NCBI GenBank assembly: GCA_022448725.1
Contig: JAKUTR010000001.1
Span: 62,001 to 126,000, forward strand
Source: SAR202 cluster bacterium
GTDB lineage: Bacteria > Chloroflexota > Dehalococcoidia > Lucifugimonadales > VXLM01
Length of the DNA: 64,000 nucleotides
Reading direction: 5' to 3'
A program made the position numbers and the translations under genes. A model generated the notes under the pieces. That model saw nothing but the letters and a program-made list of their open reading frames with translations. It was not told the DNA's origin and made no database searches. Positions 56,734-64,000 of the stretch are shown piece after piece (the stretch's first letter is position 1; each line of letters begins with the position of its first letter).

Positions 56734-58184
56734 TATATCCCGTTCTGTTAGCGGGTGGTTCTGGGACAAGGATGTGGCCTTTATCAAGGGAGCATTCCCC
56801 CAAGCAATTCCTTCCGTTGGTTAGCGCAAAGAGTATGTTTCAAGAAACGGTTTCTCGTCTTGAAGGGATGGGAGCCAAGCCACCACTGGTAGTTTGTAAC
56901 GATATACACAGGTTTATGCTTTCCGATCAATTGCGCGAAATAAATCTCAAGCCGCTTGAAGTCATAACTGAACCAGTGGGACGTAACACAGCTCCTGCTC
57001 TCACGCTTGCGGTTCTACATATACAAAATGTGTGTGGTGGGCAAGATACTGACCCAATCATTTTGTCTATGCATTCAGATCACCTGATTCAGGACACCAG
57101 TGCCTTTCATAGCGCAGTGGTTAAGGGAGTCGAGCTAGCTCAGCGAGGGTACTTGGTCACATTTGGGGTTCCACCTGATACTCCGGAGACTGGCTATGGT
57201 TACATTCGTAAAGGTTCTCAGATCAATGACATAAATCAGGCTAACGTGATTGATCAGTTTGTGGAAAAGCCGGATCCTCAGACTGCCCGTGAGTACCTAG
57301 GTTCCGGGGACTATCTTTGGAACAGCGGCATTTTTATGATGAAGCAGTCAGTTTGGTTTTCTGAATTAGGTCGTCATAGGCCTGACATTCTCGCTGCGGC
57401 TAAACTGGCCTACGATGCAGGAAGCGACCATTTTGAGTTCTTTCGGCCCGGAGTCGAAGAGTTTCTAAGGTGTCCTAGTGAATCTATTGACTATGCGGTT
57501 ATGGAACCGGCTACCTCCTCGACAGACCAAAGTGTCAGGTGTGCTGTTATAGAACTAGAAGCTGGGTGGTCTGATATTGGTTCTTGGTCTGCGATATGGG
57601 CAAGACGTGAAAAAGATAGCAACGGCAACGTAACTCTAGGAGACGTGTATGCCTCTGGCACTACAAATTCACTGTTAATGGCGGAGCAAAGACTTCTTGC
57701 TACGGTAGGTGTATCCGATGTGGTCGTCATAGAAACCCCCGATGCGGTTCTCGTGTCTCGTAAAGACCGGGTGCAAGAAGTGAAACAAATCGTTGAGAGA
57801 TTGAAGGCTGACAGACGTACGGAAACAGAAGTTAACACACGTGTGCATAGACCTTGGGGCAGTTATGAGGTTCTCGATTCAGGACAAAACTTCCAAGTCA
57901 AGCGATTGACCGTGAATCCTGGTGCTTCTCTTTCCCTTCAATATCACCACCATCGTGCTGAACATTGGGTTGTAGTTGGAGGTACAGCGAAAGTCACTCG
58001 AGACGGAGAAGTCTTTACTCTTACTGCGAACGAATCGACTTATGTGTCACCGTCTAGTATTCATCGTCTAGAGAATCCATCTGATGAGCCCTTGCTGATG
58101 ATCGAAGTTCAGACGGGTGACTATCTCGACGAGGATGATATTGTACGGCTTGAAGATAATTACAACAGGCTAAATGATGCTTAG
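56730..58184 (+). CDS. manC: Mannose-1-phosphate guanylyltransferase/mannose-6-phosphate isomerase
   Basis: A 484-residue bifunctional enzyme that makes GDP-mannose. The nucleotidyltransferase begins with LAGGSGTRMWPLSRE (7-21) and PKQFLPL, with FVEKPD near 178. The C-terminal cupin (about 370-480) has RPWGSYEVL and HHHRAEHWVVVGG, the metal-binding His cluster of the isomerase. Both domains are complete. It starts at GTG 56730 (GTGA overlap with the previous stop). Confidence 0.93.
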   Translation: MIYPVLLAGGSGTRMWPLSREHSPKQFLPLVSAKSMFQETVSRLEGMGAKPPLVVCNDIHRFMLSDQLREINLKPLEVITEPVGRNTAPALTLAVLHIQNVCGGQDTDPIILSMHSDHLIQDTSAFHSAVVKGVELAQRGYLVTFGVPPDTPETGYGYIRKGSQINDINQANVIDQFVEKPDPQTAREYLGSGDYLWNSGIFMMKQSVWFSELGRHRPDILAAAKLAYDAGSDHFEFFRPGVEEFLRCPSESIDYAVMEPATSSTDQSVRCAVIELEAGWSDIGSWSAIWARREKDSNGNVTLGDVYASGTTNSLLMAEQRLLATVGVSDVVVIETPDAVLVSRKDRVQEVKQIVERLKADRRTETEVNTRVHRPWGSYEVLDSGQNFQVKRLTVNPGASLSLQYHHHRAEHWVVVGGTAKVTRDGEVFTLTANESTYVSPSSIHRLENPSDEPLLMIEVQTGDYLDEDDIVRLEDNYNRLNDA

Positions 58185-58266
58185 CAGATTTGACGGGAAA
58201 CACTCCCGCGCCCTTTCATAACCCATATATCCTTGGTTCATTGGCCACAGATTGCGCTGAAGGTAC

Positions 58267-58296
58267 TTGACATCCACGGGCCTCAGTTTTTATATT
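58267..58296 (+). promoter_or_regulatory. Promoter of the winged-helix regulator gene
   Basis: TTGACA (58267-58272), 18-base spacer, TATATT (58291-58296): the same hexamers and spacing as the tRNA promoter. The expected start lies at about 58303, the A of the regulator ATG. Confidence 0.75.
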
Positions 58297-58302
58297 CGGA
58301 TT

Positions 58303-58971
58303 ATGCGTTCCATAAATGAACAGAGCCCTCCCCTCGAAGGAACAGCATATCGGGAATTGCGTGTTCTTGAGGAGATGGACGGCACTGCGGAGATTAGTCA
58401 GAGACGCCTCTCTAGTCAACTAGGCGTTGCTCTTGGTGTTACCAACCTACTAGTCAAGAAACTCGCGAAGCAAGGTTACATACGTGTCACCCAACTTGGC
58501 TGGAAAAGATGGGCGTACGTTGTAACACCCCGAGGGATGGCCCGCAAGATACACCTAACGAAAGCTTACGTTGAGCGTTTTATTGATCATTATAGTCGTG
58601 TGCGAGCACTACTACGGGAGGACCTCAGAGATCAGGGTTTTACTCCAACCACACAGGTTGCGGTGGTGGGTACAACTGAGATATCAGAACTTGCTTTCCT
58701 TGCGCTACGCGATATCGGCGCTACCAATATTGATGTGTACGCAATAAACCCTGTAAGGCAGGAATTCTTAGGTATCACGGTACAAGATCTGAATTTCCTT
58801 GCTCCCTCAAAGTATGGATTCGTAGTACTCACCCAATCGAATGACGAGAATGGCCTGCGTGAATCTCTTTTAAGCAATGGCGTTTTAGAGTCGCAGATCG
58901 TCGAACTTTTTCGGGTGCCCGATGGATCACAAGCTACTACGGATATAGATTCGGAACTTGGAACTAATTAA
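58303..58971 (+). CDS. Winged-helix regulator with C-terminal Rossmann-like sensor domain
   Basis: A 222-residue protein. Residues about 12-85 form a MarR-type winged helix (RELRVLEEMDG ... ISQRRLSSQLGVALGVTNLLVKKLAKQGYI), as in exopolysaccharide-associated MarR-type regulators. After a helical linker, residues 118-205 look like a Rossmann fold (QVAVVGTTEISELAFLALRDIG ... VYAINPVRQEFLG), suggesting it senses a nucleotide or nucleotide sugar. I use ATG 58303; the in-frame TTG at 58267 is the -35 hexamer of its promoter. There is no Shine-Dalgarno, so translation is probably leaderless. It is followed directly by the NusG paralogue and probably controls this cluster. Confidence 0.75.
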   Translation: MRSINEQSPPLEGTAYRELRVLEEMDGTAEISQRRLSSQLGVALGVTNLLVKKLAKQGYIRVTQLGWKRWAYVVTPRGMARKIHLTKAYVERFIDHYSRVRALLREDLRDQGFTPTTQVAVVGTTEISELAFLALRDIGATNIDVYAINPVRQEFLGITVQDLNFLAPSKYGFVVLTQSNDENGLRESLLSNGVLESQIVELFRVPDGSQATTDIDSELGTN

Positions 58972-58973
58972 GT

Positions 58974-59606
58974 ATGCACAGGTCACCCTCAATGAATGAA
59001 CCGGGCTGGTACTTAGCGCGTACCAAGCCTATGTCGGAATACGTAGCCGCAGATTCCCTAGCCCGTAGGGGGTACAGGCTATTTTTGCCGTTAGTTAAAA
59101 CACCCCGACCACGTGCGGGCCGTAACGACGCCCCATTGTTCCCAGGGTATATTTTTGTTCACCGTGATATAGAAGAAACCTTACCCCCAATTGGGCAGAT
59201 GGCAGGTTTTATTGGATGGGTTGAGTTTGATGGGAGTCTTGCTTCTCTAAGTGATCAGGCTGCTGAACAGCTTAGAGAGAGAGTCCGGGCTATTGATGAT
59301 GTTGGTGGACACTGGGAACGTTACAAACGTGGGCAACAGGTGAAGTTAGTTAGTGGAGAGATCGAAAGTCTTGCCGAAATCTTGGAAGAACCGAAATCGC
59401 CCCATGCCCCTGTACAGGTGTTAATGAGTTTCATGGGGCGGCGTGTGCCAGCGAAGGTTCCTTGGGGACAGATTCAGCCACTAAATATTACGCCTGATAA
59501 TCGACCCCTTTCAAGGCGAACGCGAGGGCGAGGACGTTGGATAAAAGGATTTGGACCTCGTGTTAGTGCCGTTACAACACCGCGAGGTGAGTACTTAATA
59601 ACATAG
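58974..59606 (+). CDS. Specialised NusG paralogue (RfaH/LoaP-like antiterminator)
   Basis: A 210-residue protein with an NGN domain (about 10-95: GWYLARTKPMSEYVAADSLARRGYRLFLP, FPGYIFVH) and a KOW domain (about 115-165: RYKRGQQVKLVSG ... LMSFMGRRVPAKVPW). The Arg-rich tail (RRTRGRGRW) is unusual. NusG paralogues inside long polysaccharide operons suppress early termination by riding on RNA polymerase. The housekeeping nusG normally sits with secE and rplK, so this one is specialised. The start may be ATG 58974 or ATG 58992. It begins two bases after the regulator. Confidence 0.82.
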   Translation: MHRSPSMNEPGWYLARTKPMSEYVAADSLARRGYRLFLPLVKTPRPRAGRNDAPLFPGYIFVHRDIEETLPPIGQMAGFIGWVEFDGSLASLSDQAAEQLRERVRAIDDVGGHWERYKRGQQVKLVSGEIESLAEILEEPKSPHAPVQVLMSFMGRRVPAKVPWGQIQPLNITPDNRPLSRRTRGRGRWIKGFGPRVSAVTTPRGEYLIT

Positions 59607-59624
59607 GACCCTCGTTGTAGCACC

Positions 59625-59685
59625 AGCTCCGAGGTAAGTCGGCTCTCTCGAGCTTGTTACTCTGTCTGCAGAGGTGGCGGAGCAT
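59625..59685 (+). promoter_or_regulatory. Structured leader with ops-like element before the UDP-sugar dehydrogenase gene
   Basis: The 133-base spacer after the nusG paralogue holds an outer pairing AGCTC (59625-59629) with GAGCT (59650-59654), an inner CGA/TCG stem, a hairpin CTCTG-TCTG-CAGAG (59660-59673), and GGCGGAGCAT at 59676-59685, which differs from the E. coli ops core GGCGGTAGCGT by one missing base and one change. It may recruit the NusG paralogue; this is inference. Confidence 0.35.
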
Positions 59686-59739
59686 GCCGGAGGTAGGGCA
59701 TAAAATTAATATTAGAGGTTGTATGAAAAGAGAGTATGG

Positions 59740-61107
59740 ATGATAACCCATGAAGACATAAGAATAGCTGTTTTTGGACTTGGCCACGTTGGACTTCCGA
59801 CCGCGCTTGGCTTTGCGGAATTGGGGTGGGATGTTATCGGAGTTGAGAACGATCCTGACAAGGCGAGCTTGATTGAGGCTGGGAATTCATGGTTTTACGA
59901 GCGAGGCCTCACCGAAATACTGAATCGTCATCTTGAAACGGGTACGTTTCGTGTCGAAACTGACGTGTCACAGGCCTTAAACGATGCGAATGTGCTGTTT
60001 GTGTGTGTTGGTACTCCCCAACGTGAAGATGGTGCAGCAGATCTTTCTGTGCTTGAAAGTCTTGCCCAAGGAATTGGGTCTAATCTCGACTCTTACAAGC
60101 TTGTTGTGGAGAAGAGTACGACACCAGTAAATACAGCACAACAACTGAGAGCCAGTATCACGCGTCATGCTAGGTCTAGTAAACCCACAGGTGCTAACAC
60201 CAACCCCCATTTCGATATTGCGGTGAACCCTGAGTTTCTTCAGGAGGGGCGTGCATTAGACGATTTTTTCAATCCGGACCGTATCGTTCTGGGGGTAGAG
60301 AGCGAACGTGCACAGGATTTGCTGATGACGATTTACAAACCGCTTGTGGCAAAGATGGGGTCTACCGTAGACGACACGGTAATCATAACTGATATCAATA
60401 CCGCGGAAATCATTAAACACGCTTCCAACGCCTTCCTGGCGACAAAAATCTCTTTCATCAATATGATTTCTGATCTCTGCGATGTCACTGGAGCAGATGT
60501 CACGCATGTGGCACGCGGATTGGGAATGGACCACCGGATAGGGCCAGCGTTCCTCAATGCTGGGTTAGGTTATGGTGGCTACTGTTTGCCCAAGGATCTG
60601 AAAGCTTTCAGTTACATCGCTTCTCGCCATGGTGTAGATTTTTCGTTCCTTGAGGAAGTGGAGCGGATAAACACAAACAGGATCAACAATTTTCTTGAGA
60701 AGGCACGGCAGGCATTATGGGTGCTGAAGGGGAAAACAATCGCAGTGTGGGGACTCTCTTTCAAACCAGAAACAGACGACATCCGGGATGCTCCTAGTAT
60801 TGGCGTAGTCAGTAGCTTTGTAAATGAGCAAGCACGTCTGAGATTGTATGACCCGAAGGCATCGGGCCATTTTAAGGCACTGTTTCCTCAGAATGACCAA
60901 ATCACATATTGTGACGCTGCTCTCACAGCGGTGGAAGGTGCCGACGCACTCTTAGTGGTCACAGAATGGTCAGAGTTCCTAGAGATTGATATCAGAGAGG
61001 TTGCGGACCGTATGAACGTGCCCTTAATCATCGATGGGCGTAATGTTTATGATCCTGATGAAATGAGAAAAAATGGGTTCGAGTACCATGGCCTTGGGAG
61101 GCATTAA
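59740..61107 (+). CDS. UDP-glucose/GDP-mannose dehydrogenase family protein
   Basis: A 455-residue NAD-dependent enzyme that oxidises C6 of a nucleotide sugar in two steps. The Rossmann motif is VFGLGHVGLP (11-20); AVNPEFLQEGRALDDFFNPDRIVLG (161-185) and the active-site C282 in GYGGYCLPKD are typical. The UDP-glucuronate decarboxylase gene next door argues for UDP-glucose 6-dehydrogenase; UDP-ManNAc or GDP-mannose dehydrogenase remain possible. I use ATG 59740; an in-frame TTG 21 bases upstream has less support. A six-codon ORF overlaps this start. Confidence 0.88.
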   Translation: MITHEDIRIAVFGLGHVGLPTALGFAELGWDVIGVENDPDKASLIEAGNSWFYERGLTEILNRHLETGTFRVETDVSQALNDANVLFVCVGTPQREDGAADLSVLESLAQGIGSNLDSYKLVVEKSTTPVNTAQQLRASITRHARSSKPTGANTNPHFDIAVNPEFLQEGRALDDFFNPDRIVLGVESERAQDLLMTIYKPLVAKMGSTVDDTVIITDINTAEIIKHASNAFLATKISFINMISDLCDVTGADVTHVARGLGMDHRIGPAFLNAGLGYGGYCLPKDLKAFSYIASRHGVDFSFLEEVERINTNRINNFLEKARQALWVLKGKTIAVWGLSFKPETDDIRDAPSIGVVSSFVNEQARLRLYDPKASGHFKALFPQNDQITYCDAALTAVEGADALLVVTEWSEFLEIDIREVADRMNVPLIIDGRNVYDPDEMRKNGFEYHGLGRH

Positions 61108-61110
61108 GGG

Positions 61111-62160
61111 ATGCTCCGGACGCAACCGTTGGTTTCACTGATTACAGGGGGTGCTGGGTTCCTCGGATCACATGTGTGTGACCGACTAATAAATGAGGGA
61201 CACAAGGTTCTCTGCCTTGATAACTTTGTGACGGGTAACGCTTTAAATGTCGAGCATCTGAAGATGCATCCCAGGTTCACACTTCTTCACCATGATGTCA
61301 CTCAACCTATACATATTTCTGAGTTATTGTCTGTAAATGGTTCCACTAATGCGGACTTGGATCTCGATTTCATATTTCACTTTGCGAGTCCAGCGAGTCC
61401 TAAAGACTATGCTCGCTTACCCATACCGACACTAAAAGTTGGAGCTCTTGGTACCTACCACGCCCTTGGTTTGGCTAAGGCGAACGATGCAATTTTTATT
61501 CTGGCATCTAGTTCTGAGGTCTATGGTGATCCATTGATTAGTCCACAGAGCGAAGACTACTACGGTAACGTTAACCCAATAGGTCCACGAAGCGTATACG
61601 ACGAGGCAAAACGGTTTGCTGAGGCCCTCAGTCTAGCCTATCTTCATTCACACGGTCTTGATGTCCGAGTCGCTCGTATTTTCAACACCTATGGACCAAG
61701 GATGCGTATTGATGATGGTAGGGCCGTCCCTGCTTTTCTGTCCCAAGCGATACGGGGTCTGCCAATCACGGTATATGGCGATGGATCACAGACTCGTTCA
61801 TTTTGTTACGTAGATGACACAATTGATGCTATTTACCGGTTGATGGCTTATGAGCGGCAAGTAGCAGCCAGCGATGATGATGTTGAGGAGTTGGTTGTTA
61901 ATATCGGTAATCCAGATGAAGTAACAATTTTGGAAGCTGCACGTGAACTGGTCAACGTCGTTGGCAGTGCAAGCCAAGTTGTTTTTGAGCCTCTACCCCA
62001 AGATGATCCAATGGTTAGGAAACCTGACATTTCCCGTGCGAAAGAATTACTAGATTGGGAACCGAAAGTGTCACGTCAAGAAGGATTTCCTAAGGCAGCG
62101 AGTTACTTCCGAGAGCAGCTTTCTAAAATTGATGATGTGTCGCTTGGCAAAAATGGTTAG
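61111..62160 (+). CDS. UDP-glucuronate decarboxylase-like extended SDR
   Basis: A 349-residue protein like UDP-glucuronate decarboxylase (UXS), which makes UDP-xylose. [10 protein letters not shown] is at 12-21; [10 protein letters not shown] (91-100) is the UXS-type substrate loop; S134/S135, E136, Y163 and K167 form the active site ([16 protein letters not shown]). [16 protein letters not shown] follows as in UXS. Its likely substrate is the product of the dehydrogenase encoded three bases upstream. GGGAGG lies nine bases before the ATG. Confidence 0.85.
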
Positions 62161-62198
62161 ATCAGAATGATTCACATCCAGATACGGATTTACTAAAA

Positions 62199-63980
62199 AT
62201 GTGTGGAGTTCTAGCTGTAATTGGGAAGAGAGGACCACTCGATCTACATCATTGTAGCGGGGCACTTGAAGGGCTCCGGCTCCGTGGACCAGATTTTAGT
62301 TTTGAGGAACTCGTATTAGATGGACGGCTCTACCTCGGCCAGACAGTGTTGTCGATCGTAGGGGAATCGGCTCCAGTAGTGGATACATATCACCGCTCTA
62401 GAAACAGGCAGTACAACATCGTCTACAACGGCGAAATCTATAACTACCGCAAGTTACAACGCGAAATCCTGGATGCCAAGGGTTATCATTGCCCATCGGA
62501 CACTGATACAGAGATGTTGGTGAACCTCCACGAAATTGCCGGCCCCGCTGCAGCTTATGATCAACTGGAAGGTATGTTTGCCTATATCACACATGATGCG
62601 CCACGAAACAAACTTTATGTAGGACGTGATCTTGTTTGTGAAAAGGTCCTGTATCGATATGAGGATGAGCAATACGTAATCATCTCGTCTGAGATTGGAC
62701 CAATACTAAAAATTGCACCGTACATTCGTATAAATCGATCAGTACTTAAGGAGTACTTCTTCACTAGACACCTGCTGACGCCGGACGTGTCAGTGTTTGA
62801 GGGGATAGAAGCAGTGCCTCCTGGTACGCTATATGAATATGACCTAACTGACTTTTCATCTCGAAACCTTCGGTCATCAGATCTGGGCGGTTTCGTTGAT
62901 CCAGACGTCTTAGAATTTAATCGCCGACGTGATATCGAGGATCTGGTCGACGAACTCGAGAGTGTGATGACTACTGCGGCGGAGAAAATTGCTCCTAGTG
63001 GAGTAGATTTTTGTGCTGTTTTCTCTGGCGGCGTGGACTCGTCGCTTGGTAGTAGGTTTGTAAGTGAGGTTCGTCAGCCTAAAGAACTGATCTCTCTTGT
63101 TTTCCCAGGCAAGGACAACATCAGTTCTCAACTGGCTCCGTTTGAAGCTGTAATGGGGAGAGATATTCTTACGGTAGATGTGTCCGTGGATTCCTTTCAC
63201 AAAACCCTCGACAGTGTATATAAGTCAGTATGTGCACCATTGCCAACTCACTCCTTTGTTTCACAGGCAATTCTTAGTCAGGCCGTACGAGAGACTGGAG
63301 CAAAAGTGGTGATTGGCGGTGATGGTGGGGATGAACTATTTGGTGGATACGAGTTCTACAAACGCCTACTTAGCAGATCCTACCCGTCCACGAACCCGTC
63401 AATTTATAGTGGCTATGTTGACCTGGGCTTCGAATTTGAAGGATGGGAGCCTGTTAATTTGATAAGCCAAATAAAACAACGTTGGTTAAAGCATTCTGAG
63501 GTGTATGAGTTTGAGCCTAATGAGCGAGATAGGATAATTCAAACCGTTCTTTACTCCGATACGGTCATTCAGCTTGAGTCTACGGGTATACGAGCTGGAG
63601 ACACGATGTCAATGCTTCATTCTATTGAGCCTAGATCGCTCTTTTTGATGTGGGATGTGATGAGGTTTGCATTAAACCTACCAGCGAAACTGAAGGTCGA
63701 TTCACATGGGCTAGATGAACTCATGACCACACGTCCAGCGCTCAAACATCTCTTCGTGAGGAAATTCGGTCGAGAACTTCTTTTCCCGAAGCAAGGTTTC
63801 TCTGGTTTTCCCAATGAAGCTGGGCGTATTGAAGTGAACGATGGACGTTACCCGCTTGTGATGGAGGTATTGGGGCTGCAGCGAGTTCCTGAGTATTCCA
63901 ACGATGAATCGGCTCGTGCCGCTGAATGGAAATTGCTTAACACAGAAATCTTTTTACGTAAATTCCGAGATCACGCGTAG
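62199..63980 (+). CDS. asnB: Asparagine synthase (glutamine-hydrolysing) family protein
   Basis: A 593-residue AsnB-type protein. The start is fixed by Cys2 of MCGVLAV, the glutaminase nucleophile; RLRGPDF, YNGEIYNY and DTDTEML complete that domain. The synthetase half has the PP-loop SGGVDSSLGS near 278-287 and GGDGGDELFGGY near 376-387. In polysaccharide clusters such paralogues may amidate sugar acids rather than make asparagine, which would fit the uronic-acid genes upstream. It follows by 38 bases. Confidence 0.88.
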   Translation: MCGVLAVIGKRGPLDLHHCSGALEGLRLRGPDFSFEELVLDGRLYLGQTVLSIVGESAPVVDTYHRSRNRQYNIVYNGEIYNYRKLQREILDAKGYHCPSDTDTEMLVNLHEIAGPAAAYDQLEGMFAYITHDAPRNKLYVGRDLVCEKVLYRYEDEQYVIISSEIGPILKIAPYIRINRSVLKEYFFTRHLLTPDVSVFEGIEAVPPGTLYEYDLTDFSSRNLRSSDLGGFVDPDVLEFNRRRDIEDLVDELESVMTTAAEKIAPSGVDFCAVFSGGVDSSLGSRFVSEVRQPKELISLVFPGKDNISSQLAPFEAVMGRDILTVDVSVDSFHKTLDSVYKSVCAPLPTHSFVSQAILSQAVRETGAKVVIGGDGGDELFGGYEFYKRLLSRSYPSTNPSIYSGYVDLGFEFEGWEPVNLISQIKQRWLKHSEVYEFEPNERDRIIQTVLYSDTVIQLESTGIRAGDTMSMLHSIEPRSLFLMWDVMRFALNLPAKLKVDSHGLDELMTTRPALKHLFVRKFGRELLFPKQGFSGFPNEAGRIEVNDGRYPLVMEVLGLQRVPEYSNDESARAAEWKLLNTEIFLRKFRDHA

Positions 63981-63981
63981 G

Positions 63982-64000
63982 ATGAAAGTAGTTTTTGTAA
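63982..64000 (+). CDS. Start of a further gene, cut by the window edge
   Basis: ATG 63982, one base after the asnB stop, opens a frame reading MKVVFV, a beta-strand start common in glycosyltransferases and other Rossmann proteins. Only six codons are present, so no family can be given. Confidence 0.35.

Follow-up and report, generated by a model that had tools for sequence, protein, structure and literature searches.

By 2020, E. coli RfaH was the sole NusG paralogue whose mode of recruitment was known in detail, according to the cited part of PMC7593976, and the hairpin recognised by LoaP has been worked out since (PMC12691694, cited in part). The ops core forms a small hairpin in the non-template DNA with a loop of G4-A7 closed by C3:G8, and T6 is flipped into an RfaH pocket consisting of H20, R23, Q24, and R73 (PMC5995543, cited in part). 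LoaP of Bacillus velezensis is also a NusG paralogue, and the long biosynthetic operons associated with it have a small RNA hairpin in the leader and a pause further downstream (PMC12691694). Moreover, the epsC/EAR RNA (RF01735), found in the leaders of EPS genes, has antitermination activity (PMC2864571, cited in part), and GNA or GNNA loops on at least two G-C pairs lead to very stable DNA mini-hairpins (PMC4686876, cited in part).

The locus described here is found in 64,000 nucleotides of a SAR202 cluster bacterium contig (hereafter the window), and like RfaH/ops it combines a NusG paralogue associated with EPS-type operons and an ops-like core. We consider it probable that the spacer directly behind the paralogue gene is a two-part site, acting in cis, at which the NusG paralogue is loaded. 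By analogy with the systems above, it is to the same degree probable that the two parts would be a LoaP-like RNA hairpin (P1) and an RfaH-like, ops-like motif, together serving the antitermination of an operon of ~37 kb. Searches of an open-access library for NusG/RfaH paralogues in Chloroflexi and for SAR202 antitermination found no description of such an element.

The locus and its NusG paralogue

Table 1. Features of the locus in window coordinates.
Feature	Position	Strand	Evidence
Promoter-like site TTGACA-18-TATATT, ahead of the MarR-type regulator gene	58267..58296	+	11/12 consensus match
Winged-helix MarR-type gene, related to an EPS-associated regulator family	58303..58971	+	TIGR04176
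Specialised NusG paralogue (NGN, KOW) with basic C-terminal tail RRTRGRGRWIKGFGP	58974..59606	+	Pfam NusG
P1 arms CCUCG / CGAGG	59610-59614 / 59630-59634	+	Covariation (18 elements) and whole-genome model matches
P1 head UUGUAGC-ACCA-GCUC, 15 nt	59615-59629	+
P2 hairpin CUCUG-UCUG-CAGAG, two bases upstream of the motif	59660..59673	+	Position relative to the motif across elements
Ops-like core GGCGGAGC, then AT/G; GC-GGA-GC mini-hairpin at 59677-59683	59676..59686	+
Nucleotide-sugar (UDP-glucose type) dehydrogenase	59719..61107	+	TIGR03026 E 3.1e-126, over cutoff
NAD-dependent sugar epimerase/dehydratase family and asparagine-synthase family genes, same strand	61111..64000	+

The promoter-like site (Table 1) is a possible but weak candidate for the start of the leader-carrying transcript, because two sites were found in the scanned region against 2.0 expected. 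This near-consensus promoter ends 6 bases before the likely ATG of the MarR-type gene, and the transcript may therefore be leaderless at its start. For the MarR-type gene, which scored under the cutoff of 88 for TIGR04176 (E 4.9e-15, 55.5 bits), a start at ATG 58303 is more likely than the listed TTG at 58267, and the dehydrogenase, with which the presumed target operon begins, has a frame open from TTG 59719 and more probably starts at ATG 59740. Past the window, the same-strand run covers ~37 kb from the leader (G000:C1 121716-159170), save one opposing frame of 139 codons.

The paralogue, whose stop codon is at 59604-59606, matched Pfam NusG above the gathering score (E 3.4e-13) and belongs to the NusG/Spt5 superfamily by its NGN domain and fold, NusG and RfaH being matched at the level of sequence as well as structure. 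It remained under the cutoffs of the RfaH, UpxY, NusG, and LoaP models, with 70.4 bits against a cutoff of 144.5 for the RfaH equivalog TIGR01955, 44.3 against 100 for the UpxY antiterminators (NF033644), and 22.9 against 125 for LoaP (NF033641). A C-terminal tail R-x-[TS]-R-G-x-[GN]-R was identified in 23/23 aligned paralogues and is lacking in E. coli RfaH; variants of the tail were RQTRGRRR in G012 and RFTRGRKR in G615. Matches to known structures end by profile position 166 of 192, and the AlphaFold model (mean pLDDT 79.3, pTM 0.55, 10 sequences) shows a NusG-like NGN, strands in the KOW region, and a low-confidence tail; as a static model it is compatible with a KOW that would switch fold from an alpha-helical state, as that of RfaH does. 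In one paralogue (L272 of G882) the KOW looked degraded and was hardly recognisable by eye, with NGN and tail remaining. At the position of RfaH R73, none of the 23 aligned paralogues carries Arg, whereas some of them retain R23 and many retain K10; the absence of this Arg would fit, without proving it, a motif that has no flipped T6 base.

The first-pass annotation had placed a five-pair hairpin and a motif close to the ops core in the spacer, and both were located there, the motif GGCGGAGCAT at 59676-59685 between the NusG paralogue and the nucleotide-sugar dehydrogenase gene, and the hairpin as P2 of Table 1. On the evidence of the window alone neither of the two exceeds chance, and it is the relatives that decide. 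The 10-mer GGCGGAGCAT occurs once in the window against 0.15 expected, GGCGGAGC occurs twice against 1.75 expected, with the second copy at 57680 within a gene, and the fold energy of the leader, judged from the window sequence alone, gave a z of -0.58, with 47/200 shuffles equal or better. The most important part of the spacer, the P1 hairpin at 59610-59634, which begins 3 bases past the stop codon of the paralogue, had not been singled out. Rfam at gathering level found two tRNAs only in the whole window, and in 59540-59800, searched up to E 10, it gave only a chance match to U6atac (E 2.6); JUMPstart RNA (RF01707) and epsC/EAR RNA matched neither in the window nor in the spacer.

P1 is a conserved RNA structure accompanying the basic tail

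To collect loci, 60 relatives were queried with the paralogue protein and then the 250 genomes of the order with an alignment, and the spacers were read directly. Searching the genome collection with the window protein alone gave no matches; the alignment as query (best 80 of 486 kept) led mainly to RfaH-type loci without the tail, which served as controls. Extending the protein search to the class (393 genomes, E 1e-30) contributed a single further genome, G305. Behind the paralogue genes a layout recurred in which P1 with its near-fixed 15-nt head is followed by a linker, a second hairpin, and GGCGNAGC. An order-wide letter pattern matched 18 times in 16 genomes, with 10 matches (9 genomes) directly after a paralogue gene and the remaining eight looking like chance; the pattern alone was not trusted because a reversed control pattern also matched many times. 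The resulting set comprised 35 elements, drawn from 27 genomes of Chloroflexota plus a contig of Anaerolineae (L068), with 19 of the elements beside paralogue genes and found via the protein or the P1 head, and 16 found by the RNA model or through adjoining paralogues outside the order. P1 is the defining feature of this set, and its presence in 35/35 is therefore no finding. Where genomes are related, their elements do not count as separate events.

The window's P1 is among the shorter ones, with five arm pairs and inner head pairs G59617-C59629, A59619-U59628, G59620-C59627, and C59621-G59626. Across the set the arms vary and the head is near-fixed, with GUAGC-N4-GCUCC in 24/35 elements and, as variants, GAAGC in L002, L044-L046, L249, L253, and L257, GCAGC in L258, GUAGU in L256, a five-base loop in L011, and GCUCU in L315. 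In a structure-blind MAFFT alignment of 18 elements, RNAalifold identified a 13-pair hairpin with both sides changed in 8/13 pairs, a count that is not distinctive by itself (8 vs 6.4 in shuffles, 69/500). The paired cells amounted to 90.2% as compared to 35.5-43.2% when partners were slid by 1-3 columns, and the covariation score of 0.473 was matched in 0/500 shuffles (shuffle mean 0.174). In a flank test, independent of the alignment test, the 5' flank of each of 18 elements was compared with its own 3' flank and with those of other elements, the near-duplicate L046 being dropped from an initial 19. Own flanks scored 18.3 against a mean of 9.8, with 0/20,000 permutations reaching it. P1 is a conserved RNA structure. 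The covariation check in relatives that had been proposed for the spacer thus turned out highly significant for P1, and P2 and the motif were supported. In G227 (L041), two complete tandem elements (2116-2203 and 2434-2522, 318 bp apart) stand behind one paralogue gene.

The repeat could alternatively be an inverted-repeat DNA operator for the upstream-encoded MarR-type protein, as a MarR-type gene precedes nusG in the window. This is barely credible, since variable arms around a near-fixed head are the reverse of what an operator presents, and the element is located 3' of the nusG gene, within the same-strand run.

Of the 250 genomes of the order, the protein search matched 27 at a threshold of E 1e-20, and 18 of these are tail-bearing; the covariance model R1 gave 24 matches in 20 genomes. 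The element was present in 18/18 tail-bearing genomes as compared to 2/232 others; 15 of the 18 had supplied rows to the model, so that the unbiased part of this comparison is 3/3 (G012, G041, and G018). The two exceptions were G170 (E 3.7e-7), which has a good element, yet no tail-bearing paralogue was found in its assembly (83% complete), and G147 (E 0.02), where no tail-bearing paralogue was found either and the match is probably chance. No element was detected up to E 5 in G070, whose paralogue runs off the contig with the tail unseen. In G041 and G018 the element is found before an epimerase-family gene on another contig and not behind the paralogue; directly downstream of the paralogue genes of L006 and G041/G018 there is no element, and it is present elsewhere in those genomes.

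A model scan of the phylum (400 genomes) matched eight, namely the window's genome, G305 (a model row), and six new ones, four of which (G898, G840, G882, and G758) proved tail-bearing; the two weakest, G770 and G323, were set aside as chance, no tail-bearing paralogue having been found in them. Within the family of G898 (29 genomes), the model matched G898, G882, and G840 at E 0.05, and the tail-bearing G615 gave only a weak match (E 0.17). A protein search in 340 genomes gave matches in 101, and 8 of the 30 higher-ranked loci read for tails were tail-bearing. All eight tail-bearing genomes found outside the order have P1; for G617, G812, and G615 (found via the protein) its scores are weak and the arms were identified by eye. 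Weak matches without the P1 head (L314, L317, and L320 of G812, L318 of G615) were set aside as chance, as was a weak model match in G617 (L319). Among 100 loci around NusG paralogues (80 genomic, 20 viral), with E values up to 1 admitted, the model matched only L057 and L068, which both carry the tail; L056, the remaining locus with the tail, and the other 97 gave no match, and the genome of L056, G041, has its element on another contig. Relatives keeping the paralogue had been expected to keep the structure, and with P1 in every tail-bearing genome found, inside and outside the order, this expectation was not refuted.

A viral pattern scan matched 94 stretches, of which 80 were run with the model and 8 scored at E 0.1, and only three of the 80 have the P1 head with arms of at least 5 pairs. 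On the related phage contigs L352 (1820-1900), L368 (4382-4409), and L373 (855-935), a P1-like hairpin of the form GCCCCCCG-UUGUAGC-N4-GCUC-CGGGGGGC separates genes of structural type, and GGCGTAGC follows after ~43 nt within the next frame. The portions of these three contigs that were read gave no NusG relative; a phage may borrow the loading site of its host.

The elements of G898 precede the paralogue gene, a condensation-domain (NRPS-type) gene 50 kb off, and an FMN-dependent dehydrogenase gene 112 kb off. By Pfam, the genes following other elements encode nucleotide-sugar dehydrogenase (L257, L258), epimerase-family (L250, L253), methyltransferase (L249), MFS (L260), ABC-transporter (L266), and condensation-domain (L262) proteins. 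Since element and tail-bearing paralogue pair with other sugar or NRPS-type clusters far from the paralogue gene, the factor probably acts in trans. P1 might instead be a riboswitch, or the site of another factor for sugar or secondary-metabolite genes, linked to the paralogue by shared operon membership only. That the elements mostly precede biosynthetic genes, and that the head is near-fixed as in ligand-binding RNAs, would agree with this; we nevertheless find it improbable, as the downstream genes differ and include nusG paralogues themselves, the tail-bearing paralogue is shared even when it lies tens of kb off or on another contig, and the spacer has no Rfam match beyond the chance one.

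The second hairpin and the ops-like motif

The motif GCGNAGC was found exactly in 22/35 elements (N being G in 13, A in 7, C in 1, and U in 1), as a near miss in six (L011, L234, L249, L258, L262, and L315), and was absent in seven (L002, L008, L042, L068, L263, L289, and L290), and the ops-like part can therefore not be essential everywhere. L315 has GUGGAAC at this place, so that U-A would replace C-G as the inner pair of the stem, possibly one compensating change, in what is a weak model match. The exact motif is located 36-57 nt past the GCUCC of P1; in the 27 elements with an exact or near motif at hand, the motif start follows GCUCC by 45-51 nt in 20, by 36-38 nt in six (L044-L046, L253, L256, and L267), and by 57 nt in L257. 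Moreover, 12 of the 18 elements found without use of the motif carry it exactly, a count that omits L041b (its finding pattern contained the motif).

P2 is a candidate pause hairpin. It was analyzed in 27/35 elements, with L002, L008, L042, L068, L263, L289, L290, and L315 excluded for having no anchoring motif or for late discovery. The hairpin ends 0-3 nt before the motif in 24/27 elements and 4 nt before it in L044-L046, and the hairpin letters are unrelated between elements. The 28 nt preceding the motif had a mean fold z of -2.2, with z < -1 in 17/27, against shuffles that kept base composition only; z was above -1 in ten, these being L003, L044-L046, L234, L256, L258, L260, L282, and the window itself, whose own P2 reached only -0.79. 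Together with the AT/G that follows, the motif of the window fits a G-10 Y-1 G+1 pause pattern, which would put the 3' end of a candidate pause at 59685.

It could be argued that only P1 matters, as in pure LoaP-like RNA recruitment, and that P2 and GGCGNAGC are a general pause or a chance feature of the lineage. The exact motif is indeed limited to part of the elements, the distant L068, L263, L289, and L290 have P1 without it, and GGCGNAGC alone is common. We hold this to be rather unlikely, because the motif keeps its place directly after P2 and its narrow distance from P1 where the letters of P2 are wholly changed, also in the distant family f140, and because most elements found without the motif nevertheless have it exactly.

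The P1 head and the motif might also pair with each other as an attenuator switch, GCUCCG and CGGAGC being perfectly complementary in the window. GCUCC is invariant in 18/18 aligned elements and the facing base of the motif varies without a compensating change; hence, this pairing was rejected. Furthermore, terminator-like sites were absent from the + strand of 58180-60000, and we regard a switch of this kind as very improbable.

Proposed mechanism and comparison with known systems

Returning to the two-part loading site, we propose that the polymerase, on leaving the nusG-paralogue gene, would transcribe P1, which would fold while emerging, a fold backed by covariation. About 45-51 nt further on (36-38 in some genomes), P2 would form at the RNA exit channel, and the polymerase would slow at GGCGNAGC, which is observed in a position like that of the 3' end of a hairpin-assisted pause. 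The near-fixed head of P1 would capture the paralogue, most simply via the basic tail RxTRGxGR, and the NGN would dock on the polymerase next to a GCGNAGC mini-hairpin exposed in the non-template strand, in the way RfaH does at ops. Finally, the paralogue would stay on the polymerase instead of NusG, past terminators and Rho, through the EPS operon, whose run of ~37 kb is observed. Binding, pausing, antitermination, and the assignment of protein parts to parts of the site are thus what we infer from a structure, a conservation, and a company with the protein that are themselves observed.

If true, this would be a further recruitment mode, in which a specific RNA structure and a protein tail travel together across Chloroflexota, and as both are defined, recruitment is testable with two short oligonucleotides and one protein. 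The element could in addition guide searches for long operons of EPS and NRPS type in Chloroflexota, and it would allow one to ask directly whether recruitment commonly relies on stable DNA mini-hairpins. We tentatively suggest, with somewhat less than even confidence, that the logics of LoaP and RfaH are joined in one leader and that NusG paralogues in general use very stable DNA mini-hairpins of the GNA/GNNA kind as a handle, the latter being suggested because the ops core belongs to the GNNA kind.

Across 78 loci from other phyla, GGCGGTAGC[AG]T gave 23 matches in 21 loci as compared to 0.4 expected. Of these 23 true ops matches, in RfaH-type loci, 20 share the strand of the paralogue and are located downstream of it. 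In the same 78 loci, GGCGNAGC[AG]T was not enriched (10 vs 21 expected). In 31 tail-less Chloroflexota loci, GGCGGTAGCG matched three times against 0.0 expected, with L013 and L049 being the same place. This ops core was seen near the tail-less paralogues of L051 (2167) and of L013 and L049 (1457, minus strand), and in L052 a tail-less paralogue is shortly followed by a strong hairpin and GGGCGGAGCATTGCCC, near the motif of the window, with no P1 seen.

The LoaP site dfn is a UNCG-type hairpin, whereas the P1 tetraloops are ACCA, CACU, CUAC, and others, with UNCG in 0/18 aligned elements. To our knowledge, LoaP has no tail like RxTRGxGR. The epsC/EAR RNA is a different RNA from the leader of the window. 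Unlike RfaH/ops, the window system has P1 and a basic tail, no Arg at the R73 position, and no JUMPstart match. An ops core GGCGGTAGCGTG with a flipped T6 was not found, the window having GGCGGAGCATG, and GCGGTAGC occurred in 0/35 elements. The window motif GCGNAGC has a three-base loop and represents the GNA form of the d(GCGNAGC)-type mini-hairpins, and the ops core of RfaH, GCGGTAGC, represents the GNNA form; in the cited part of PMC4686876 the d(GCGNAGC) mini-hairpins are synthetic DNA fragments and not a regulatory site. The description of the leader as ops-like in the first-pass annotation accordingly applies to the motif, which is the ops core minus one loop base, and to the placing of the site, but not to the main conserved part, which is an RNA hairpin. 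In conclusion, the window element occupies the place downstream of the paralogue that ops mostly has in other phyla, with a loop that is shorter and with P1 as an addition.
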